Source: an uncultured Rhodobiaceae bacterium (GTDB lineage: Bacteria; Pseudomonadota; Alphaproteobacteria; RS24). Taken from it: a stretch of DNA of 64,000 nucleotides. The position numbers and the translations under genes were made by a program. Below are positions 54,397 to 57,569 of the stretch, one piece after another (the stretch's first letter is position 1; each line of letters begins with the position of its first letter). The stretch covers positions 124,001-188,000 of the forward strand of contig CALEFA010000070.1 of NCBI GenBank assembly GCA_937876775.1, given 5' to 3'. The notes beneath the pieces are model-generated. The model did no database searches, was not told the origin of the DNA, and was given only the letters and a program-made list of their open reading frames with translations.

Positions 54397-55182
54397 CTAA
54401 CTGAACACGGCAAGGTGCTGCATGGAATCCATAATACGGCGGCCTTGCCGGTTCCAGATTTGAATCAATTGTGACGAGTAACCATCGCGGATAAAGCGTG
54501 TGGCTGAACGCACCAGCCACCAACCACCTTCTGTGCTGATGTCGTCGCTGAGCATATTGATATTCCAATTCATTGAGCTGAGCGCTTGAATTTGCGTGAG
54601 AGCGGCCAGCGCGGCAGGTGGCGCATCGCCTAGCACCATCAGCGGCAATAGACCGGTGCGGGCATGTTCATCTGTATGGCGTGTCCACAATAACATGTCG
54701 GGATTATCTGACCCTGAAAGCAAATCTGGGCCAGAGATTTTGCGCCGCTCAAAATTGGTTAAAAATGTTGGCGCCGGTGCCTGCGGCACAATTAATTCAG
54801 CGTCTTCGGGGCGGGTGTCGGGCAGATTAATCGGATAGTCCATGGTTTTTTCGATCGCTCGATTGACCCCAAAAGTGAAGTAACCATAAGTGCCAGCGCC
54901 CAGTTCGCTGTCGAGGCGCGCTTCAATGGTGACGTTGTTTTTGCCCTGCCGCAAAAGTTTATGGGTGACTTGCAGAGGCCCTGCGGCGGGGCCGATAAAA
55001 TTAACCTGCATGGTGCGCAATGGCGGAAGGTCGGGGTAGTGATGTTGAATGGCGGCCAGCAATAGGGCGCTGGTCATGCCACCAAAGGCGGTGCGACCTT
55101 GCAACCAATTGCCCGGCAATTCGACGGCATAATTTGGTGCGGTGGCGTAAAACGTCTCTAATAACTCGGAATAGGTGCTCAT
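54397..55182 (-). CDS. Acyl-CoA thioesterase, TesB-like double hotdog
   Basis: A 261-residue protein with two hotdog domains in the thioesterase II arrangement. The first contains WLQGRTAFGGMTSALLLAAI and MQVNFIGPAAGPLQV; the second contains LSSMNWNINML and GWWLVRSATRFIRDGYSSQ, typical of acyl-CoA thioesterases. It hydrolyses an acyl-CoA to free acid and CoA. The ATG at 55182 lies 7 bp after the stop of the GIY-YIG gene; the earlier TTG is less likely. The gene is convergent with the acyl-CoA dehydrogenase, with a 4-bp gap. Confidence 0.85.
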   Translation of the reverse strand: MSTYSELLETFYATAPNYAVELPGNWLQGRTAFGGMTSALLLAAIQHHYPDLPPLRTMQVNFIGPAAGPLQVTHKLLRQGKNNVTIEARLDSELGAGTYGYFTFGVNRAIEKTMDYPINLPDTRPEDAELIVPQAPAPTFLTNFERRKISGPDLLSGSDNPDMLLWTRHTDEHARTGLLPLMVLGDAPPAALAALTQIQALSSMNWNINMLSDDISTEGGWWLVRSATRFIRDGYSSQLIQIWNRQGRRIMDSMQHLAVFS

Positions 55183-55189
55183 TTTAAGA

Positions 55190-55477
55190 TTACTTCTCTT
55201 GCTCAATGTCGCCTGCTTGGGTCAATAAACGCAGGCGTTCGGATTTACTTTTCTTCAATTCATATTCGCGCGCCATAGCCGCACCGCGGGTTTTGAAAGC
55301 CTCACTATGCACCAAACGCCACTGCCGTCCACGCGTTGACTTGGCGCCTTTTCCGTTATTATGGGCGGCCAGACGTTGCTGTAAATCAGTCGTCCAACCG
55401 ACATAAGATTTAGCCGGTCCGGCGTCACAGCTTTGTAGCAGATAGACAAAACAGGGCTTGATGATTGGCGGTGCGAT
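55190..55477 (-). CDS. GIY-YIG nuclease-family protein with a non-ATG start (candidate AUC)
   Basis: A 95-residue open frame encodes a GIY-YIG domain: the first strand motif is CFVYLLQS, the second SYVGWTTDLQQRLAAHN, with GKGAKSTRGRQWRLVHS, then the catalytic-helix stretch AREYELKKSK. No ATG, GTG or TTG is available in frame upstream of the domain. The best initiation site is an ATC codon at 55477 with GAGG 5 bp upstream, giving MAPPIIKPCFVY if read as Met. It may be initiated at AUC, or be a start-lost pseudogene. Homologues (YhbQ-like) are small single-domain proteins of uncertain role. The thioesterase gene follows 7 bp later. Confidence 0.8.
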   Translation of the reverse strand: MAPPIIKPCFVYLLQSCDAGPAKSYVGWTTDLQQRLAAHNNGKGAKSTRGRQWRLVHSEAFKTRGAAMAREYELKKSKSERLRLLTQAGDIEQEK

Positions 55478-55625
55478 TGCGGCCTCACATGGTTGCGATA
55501 ATCAATCAGAGTTTATAGTGCTTCGGCGATGATTTGTAACCCTACAAAGGCTTTCACAATAAGCTTTACAGCCATGGCTAAAGCAGCTAATCACGCAAAT
55601 TCACTAGGGTTTTATGAGGTTGTCG

Positions 55626-57569
55626 ATGTCCCATACAAACACCACGCATCTTCGAGATGAAAATTTGGCTCCGAAATCGCCGGCTTTGGCGCGCGCTGAT
55701 GCACAATATGGCGTATCGCGCTGGGGTGATGGGCTGATCACAATTTTGGAAAATGGCCACATCGGCCTCCTGCACCCTAATCGTCCCGATGATGTGCCAA
55801 CCGATTTGATGTCAGTGATTGAAAACCTTGATGCGCGTGGCATTGCTGCGCCGGTTTTGTTGCGCGTGTCAGATTTTATTTCATGGCGTATTGAGCAAAT
55901 CAATGAAGCCTTCCGCGATGCCATTTCGGAACTTGATTATCGCGGCACTTATCAAGGTGTTTTTCCGGTTAAAGTGAACCAACAAGCGCAGGTGATTGAA
56001 CGCATTGTGGCCGAGGGACGGCAATATGATTTCGGCCTTGAAGTTGGGTCAAAAGCTGAGTTGCTCATCGCCCTGTCGCATGACACGGGTGGCAAAGCGG
56101 CTTTGATCTGCAATGGTGTGAAAGACGAGGAATTTATTTGCCTCGCCCTGATGTCGCAACGGCTTGGGTTTAATACTTTTATCGTTTTGGAAAGCCCGCG
56201 CGAATTGGATTTAGTGCTCCGCGTGTCGCGCGAAATGGATATCCGCCCGCAGCTTGGCATCAGAATTAAACTAACCCATGAAGTGAGCGGCAATTGGTCG
56301 GCGTCCAGCGGTGACCGGTCAACATTTGGCATGACCATTGCGCAAGTGATGGATGTGATTGACCATTTGCGCACCGAAGGGTTTCTTGAATGTTTGGTGT
56401 TGCAGCACAGCCATTTGGGCAGTCAGGTGCCGAATATTATTGAAATTCGTATGGCGGCGCAGGAAGCCTGTCGGTTTTTCGTCGAATTGCGCAAAGAGGG
56501 CGCGCCCTTATCTTTTCTCGATCTGGGCGGCGGTCTCGGCATTGACTACACTGGCGAGCATCGCGCCACTGAAAACTCGACCAATTACACCTTGTCCGAA
56601 TATTCCGTGAATATTGTTGAGACGGTGAAATATGCCATGGATAAAGCGGATATGGCGCATCCGATTATTATCACTGAAAGCGGCCGTGCCTGTGTCGCGC
56701 AATCGTCGATGCTGTTGTTCAATATTCTTGAAGCGACGCATTTTGATAGCGCGCTGCCGGTTGAAGCTGAAGACGGCGATCATACAGTTTTACAGTCTAT
56801 GTTGGCGATTGAGGCCTATCTCACGGCTGAACGTGTGCACGAGTGCTGGAATGATTTGGTGTTTTACCGCAATGAAATGCGCGCCCTGTTGAAAAGCGGG
56901 CAGGCGAGCTTGCGCGAAACCGCCAAGGCTGAGCGCGTGCATCTTTATTTAATGAACCGGATCAAAGCGCTTTTGGCTGAAAATGACTCGATGAATGAAG
57001 AAATGGCCGAGGCCATGAAGCAGGCGGCTGATATTTATCACGGTAATTTTTCGCTGTTTCAAAGCCTGCCCGATGTTTGGGCGATTGACCAAATTCATCC
57101 GATTGCGCCGCTCCATAGATTGGAAGAAAAGCCAACCCGCCACGCAGTTTTGAGTGACATCACCTGCGATAGCGATGGCAAAATTGATAGTTTCGTGCTC
57201 GGCAACGGCCTATCAAAAACATTGCCGGTTCATGAGTTGAAAGAAGACGAAGACTATTATCTTGGCGTGTTTTTCGTCGGTGCCTATCAAGAGACCTTGG
57301 GTGATTTGCACAATCTATTCGGCGACACCAATGTGGTGACCATTGAATTGTGCCCCGATGGGTCATTTGAATTGATGCATGAGCAAGAAGGCGACACAAT
57401 ATCTGAGGTGCTGTCTTATGTGGAGTATGATCCGCGCCAAATGGTCGATGTGTTCAAGAAAACCGTTGAAAATGCTGTGAAAACTGGCCGTATTGCGGCG
57501 ACCGAACGGCGCCAGATGATTTCTGCCTTTAAAGACAGTATTAACGGATATACTTATTTCGAAAAGTAA
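55626..57569 (+). CDS. speA: Biosynthetic arginine decarboxylase
   Basis: SpeA decarboxylates arginine to agmatine. It is a PLP enzyme of the alanine-racemase fold. The 647-residue protein opens near QYGVSRWGDGLITI; the PLP lysine is in GVFPVKVNQQAQV, followed by FGLEVGSKAELL, HSHLGSQV, FLDLGGGLGIDYTG, SESGRA-like TESGRACVAQSS and, at the end, VEYDPRQMVD. The ATG at 55626 follows GAGG by 6 bp and is preferred to one 12 bp upstream. It starts a four-gene polyamine operon. Confidence 0.96.
   Translation: MSHTNTTHLRDENLAPKSPALARADAQYGVSRWGDGLITILENGHIGLLHPNRPDDVPTDLMSVIENLDARGIAAPVLLRVSDFISWRIEQINEAFRDAISELDYRGTYQGVFPVKVNQQAQVIERIVAEGRQYDFGLEVGSKAELLIALSHDTGGKAALICNGVKDEEFICLALMSQRLGFNTFIVLESPRELDLVLRVSREMDIRPQLGIRIKLTHEVSGNWSASSGDRSTFGMTIAQVMDVIDHLRTEGFLECLVLQHSHLGSQVPNIIEIRMAAQEACRFFVELRKEGAPLSFLDLGGGLGIDYTGEHRATENSTNYTLSEYSVNIVETVKYAMDKADMAHPIIITESGRACVAQSSMLLFNILEATHFDSALPVEAEDGDHTVLQSMLAIEAYLTAERVHECWNDLVFYRNEMRALLKSGQASLRETAKAERVHLYLMNRIKALLAENDSMNEEMAEAMKQAADIYHGNFSLFQSLPDVWAIDQIHPIAPLHRLEEKPTRHAVLSDITCDSDGKIDSFVLGNGLSKTLPVHELKEDEDYYLGVFFVGAYQETLGDLHNLFGDTNVVTIELCPDGSFELMHEQEGDTISEVLSYVEYDPRQMVDVFKKTVENAVKTGRIAATERRQMISAFKDSINGYTYFEK

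Follow-up and report, generated by a model that had tools for sequence, protein, structure and literature searches.

A conserved GIY-YIG gene without a canonical start codon, probably translated from AUC, in an uncultured alphaproteobacterium

Background

Non-canonical start codons are, as a kind, already known. The infC gene, which encodes IF3, starts at ATT, ATC or ATA and is autoregulated by its product. To our knowledge, ATC starts are established for very few bacterial genes, and our literature searches on AUC starts in bacteria returned nothing useful. A study of Streptomyces describes an infC gene that starts at ATC and a sigR gene with a conserved GTC start that is repressed by IF3 (PMC5472188).

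The GIY-YIG gene of an aquatic bacterium that is analyzed here appears to be a new conserved instance of this kind. As in infC, a near-cognate ATN codon follows a Shine-Dalgarno site; unlike infC, the gene is of the nuclease type and does not encode a translation factor, its non-canonical state is seen in only one genus so far, and the effect of IF3 is predicted. The likeness to sigR includes a conserved non-canonical start in a gene outside the translation apparatus, the presence of a Shine-Dalgarno site and the possible existence of an upstream in-frame ATG. The sigR start, however, is preceded by an extended AGGAGGTG site and has been proven by experiment (PMC5472188), whereas the GIY-YIG gene has GAGG only and is known from sequence alone.

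The GIY-YIG locus and its product

The window (the whole 64,000-nt stretch of DNA analyzed) is part of contig C70 of a 1.72-Mb genome, denoted G000. It was compared with G002, a different species of the same genus, and with a third congener, G001. The features of the locus are:

55190-55477, minus strand: UPF0213-type GIY-YIG coding sequence, 95 codons plus TAA with ATC as the proposed start, identified by Pfam and PDB profile matches and by pN/pS
55502-55504, minus strand: upstream in-frame stop codon TGA (in G002, a TAA at another place)
55485-55490, minus strand: ATGTGA, a start-stop that is out of frame, overlaps the Shine-Dalgarno site and is kept in the three congeners
55483-55486, minus strand: Shine-Dalgarno site GAGG, with a 5-nt spacer to the ATC, kept in the three congeners
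55475-55477, minus strand: proposed start codon ATC, identical in G002 and G001
55460-55465, minus strand: two more in-frame ATC codons (55465-55463 and 55462-55460)
54397-55182, minus strand: acyl-CoA thioesterase gene (4HBT_3/4HBT_3C), downstream of the GIY-YIG gene
55614-57569, plus strand: biosynthetic arginine decarboxylase gene speA, upstream of the GIY-YIG gene and divergent from it

The initial annotation of this DNA described an intact 95-codon GIY-YIG frame that has no ATG, GTG or TTG start, and the present analysis confirms it. The frame runs from ATC (55477-55475) to TAA (55192-55190) within a stop-to-stop open frame of 103 codons. Its product matches the GIY-YIG domain (PF01541) with 56.3 bits, compared with a curated Pfam score of 22.6, and given the E-value of this match (4e-15) and the strong purifying selection described below, the frame is more than a chance occurrence. 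A profile constructed from the protein and its relatives matched PDB entries 1zg2 (BH0048, E 3.4e-15) and 1ywl (EF2693, E 6.2e-11), both UPF0213 proteins; these were the sole two matches at E<=0.01 and spanned the full domain, so that the UPF0213 proteins have the same domain as the protein analyzed here, over the full length. Among six aligned proteins, Y12, Y25, G27, R35 and E71 are invariant. The GIY-YIG protein retains the motif residues, the catalytic ones among them (both tyrosines, the arginine of the first helix and the glutamate), and its family membership suggests that it would be a nuclease. Neither this protein nor the thioesterase has an NCBIfam match, and literature searches on UPF0213/COG2827/YhbQ in conjunction with GIY-YIG found nothing useful. 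A phage or mobile origin was considered and rejected: there was no match in phage records, and none of the 12 pattern matches in viral contigs encoded a relative.

The ATG of the thioesterase gene (55182-55180) begins 7 nt past the GIY-YIG stop codon. A TATAAA at 55517-55512, spotted by eye, received no support from a scan for sigma-70-like promoters, which found a single site, inside the GIY-YIG gene, versus 0.7 expected by chance.

The candidate start codon

Between the upstream in-frame TGA and the GIY-motif tyrosine lie 19 codons, none of which is ATG, GTG or TTG. The first canonical codon in frame is a TTG at codon 54 (with the ATC counted as 0), past the two motifs, GIY and YIG. The one-base neighbours of ATG in that upstream stretch are three ATC codons and one AAG. 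The initial annotation had singled out the ATC 5 nt after GAGG as the only plausible start, and this choice is supported: it is the first of the three in-frame ATCs and the sole one with a Shine-Dalgarno partner, its predicted duplex having -5.6 kcal/mol versus +1.9 kcal/mol for each of the ATCs at 55465 and 55462. The expected 16S rRNA tail, GGATCACCTCCTT, has one occurrence in the genome. Shine-Dalgarno duplexes at least as strong as -5.6 kcal/mol are found for 41% of the 149 ATG-first genes on the contig versus 10% of 5000 random places. On the contig, GAGG is most often spaced by 7 nt (seven cases, versus three with 5 nt), so the 5-nt spacer is a little short.

The reading that we favor, with a probability of roughly 0.73, is that this is a living UPF0213-type GIY-YIG gene translated from the AUC at 55477-55475, with a low, IF3-sensitive output. 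The ribosome would be guided to this codon by the GAGG, and the initiator tRNA would place fMet there, yielding a protein that begins with fMet-Ala-Pro-Pro (codon 2 is GCA, for Ala). The mismatched start would be expected to keep the output of the gene low and should make its translation sensitive to IF3, as in the case of infC and Streptomyces sigR. Since initiation would take place at AUC with the aid of a Shine-Dalgarno site, the gene is probably repressed by IF3, similarly to infC and sigR.

Non-canonical initiation could also take place at another near-cognate codon, that is, at the second or the third ATC or at the AAG that follows them, all of which precede the domain and would leave it complete. 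In genus g4, a GTG at Tyr -6 (position relative to the GIY-motif tyrosine) is aligned with the third ATC, and in distant relatives (loci L044-L047) the last canonical start is at Tyr -5. We nevertheless consider this alternative unlikely, given that both of these ATCs lack a Shine-Dalgarno match and that the second one is replaced by CCT in G001.

Recoding, in which translation would start at the out-of-frame AUG of AUGUGA (55490) or at the overlapping GUG and then shift frame, or else would read through the upstream stop, is more doubtful still. The domain is in the +1 frame relative to the AUG of AUGUGA, and AUGUGAGG is kept in the three congeners; however, no slippery sequence is apparent by eye, that AUG has no Shine-Dalgarno site ahead of it, the predicted RNA folding of the region is unremarkable (z 0.09), and the in-frame upstream stops of G000 and G002 differ both in kind and in place.

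Conservation in congeners and other relatives

The stretch from TTATCGCAACC through the ATC into the domain is identical in G002 and G000, and G002 likewise has no canonical start before the domain. Over the 95 codons, 16 synonymous and 4 non-synonymous changes separate the two species (pN/pS 0.075), and within the first 84 codons the differences number 1, 2 and 15 at the first, second and third codon positions, respectively. The two genomes share 39 aligned codons before either reaches a canonical start, and these contain 5 synonymous and 0 non-synonymous changes; counting from the ATC, all 8 differences within 38 codons are in third positions, which indicates that the region unreachable from canonical starts is selected as protein. 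Judging by this pattern of substitutions, the GIY-YIG gene is alive, not dead. The initial annotation had taken the preserved domain and the tight link to the thioesterase gene to suggest expression; the suggestion holds, with codon-level selection as better evidence than the thioesterase link.

A lost start followed by decay of the gene would fit the observations that the loss is common to two genomes, that other genera keep a canonical start, and that the leader in the genus is shorter than that of G001 (an 11-base gap), but this scenario is most improbable considering the low pN/pS between the two start-less species and the presence of 0 internal stops or frameshifts in either. That the start codon was misread or misassembled is very unlikely, even for metagenome assemblies such as these, because the sister species G002, which is 0.244 differences per synonymous site away, carries the same ATC and is likewise devoid of a canonical start, and ATC is found again in G001.

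The ATC proposed as the start is present in all three congeners, one of which, G001, also has in-frame ATGs, and other genera use canonical starts. The G001 locus comes from a 3.5-kb contig with 3.2-fold coverage according to its name. It keeps GTGAGG and ATCGCACCGCCA though the neighbouring codons differ, and its two in-frame ATGs precede the ATC by 6 and 30 codons. Because the predicted Shine-Dalgarno duplex of the nearer ATG (-6.4 kcal/mol) is about as strong as that of the ATC (-6.8 kcal/mol), G001 is neutral as to which codon is used, and the conservation of ATC in this genome may reflect the coding sequence alone.

The GIY-YIG gene is represented in 24 of the 28 genomes of the family. 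We examined 49 loci, of which 48 were read, and a canonical start ahead of the domain is missing in three: the window locus and G002 twice (L002 and L026); these 48 loci are not all independent, as L026-L042 appear to repeat genomes among L002-L025. The start-less state is accordingly seen in just two species of one genus, whereas in the other relatives read, an ATG, GTG or TTG stands in frame ahead of the domain. The orthologues begin before the domain, not inside it, with starts relative to the GIY tyrosine at -13 (ATG) in genus g6, -22 to -27 in g5, and -18 or -22 (ATG) in g4. The g6 ATG lies two codons upstream of the ATC in an ungapped DNA alignment versus the same column in the protein alignment. 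In genus g5 (L015-L017), a TATATT is visible by eye about 6-7 nt before the GIY-YIG ATG, which would suit a leaderless transcript. One genome (G027) has two copies of the gene on different contigs (L008 and L025), possibly through contamination or strain mixture.

Non-canonical starts elsewhere in the family

The initial annotation also called ATC initiation very rare in bacteria. The rarity stands; the codon is nonetheless not foreign to this family, as seen in infC. The infC start position was defined as a Shine-Dalgarno site followed by ATA or ATC and then [VA]RRP, and the assignment, which is to be taken as predicted, draws on homology and the known biology of infC. Of 26 infC loci found, 24 were read (L194-L216 and L219; L217 and L218 unread), with ATA at the start position in 20 and ATC in four, the latter being the four g5 loci. 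For 17 of the loci read, a stop no more than 10 codons upstream closes the frame, so that the ATA or ATC has no canonical start ahead of it; G000 and G002 have a GTG in frame 8 codons before the start position.

For a broader comparison, 907 kb of G000 were set against 1.09 Mb of G002, which covers between about one half and two thirds of either genome. This yielded 749 non-overlapping paired frames, 544 of which look coding, and in 23 of the latter both genomes have at least 20 aligned codons before any canonical start. Inspection by eye put 21 of these down to ordinary situations, either an ATG behind a conserved leader or a shadow frame that looks antisense. The remaining two, a lower bound given that the 20-codon cut misses genes with a nearer next canonical start, are the GIY-YIG gene and hflX:

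842-2191 of L099 (contig C10 of G000), minus strand: hflX; also in L191 (G002), L192 (G001) and L193 (G004)

HflX, a ribosome-splitting GTPase, was identified by TIGR03156 (E=1e-131), and its gene in the genus of the window appears to lack a canonical start as well. The first canonical start is at codon 40 in G000 and at codon 42 in G002, after a start-like ATA TTT AGC GAC; G001 has ATT TTT AGC GAC at the same place, and its first canonical codon is codon 19. The hflX case is weaker than that of the GIY-YIG gene because no clear Shine-Dalgarno site is seen and the match to the HflX model does not start until residue 39 of the frame.

It is conceivable, if rather doubtful, that this lineage keeps a small set of genes on near-cognate AUN starts under joint control by IF3, namely infC (AUA/AUC), hflX (AUA/AUU) and the GIY-YIG gene (AUC). 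Such shared control, if true, would couple the supply of ribosomes to their rescue and to a protein that handles DNA. If confirmed, the GIY-YIG gene would extend a very short list by one conserved gene that is initiated at AUC and does not belong to the translation apparatus and, together with hflX, would make IF3 control beyond infC testable in alphaproteobacteria. Gene callers limited to ATG, GTG and TTG would overlook genes of this kind or shorten them.

Matches to hflX were detected in 118 of the 142 alphaproteobacterial genomes searched. In G004, which belongs to another genus, the hflX frame has an ATC shortly after AAAGG, and the first canonical codon, a TTG, occurs only in the first conserved strand.
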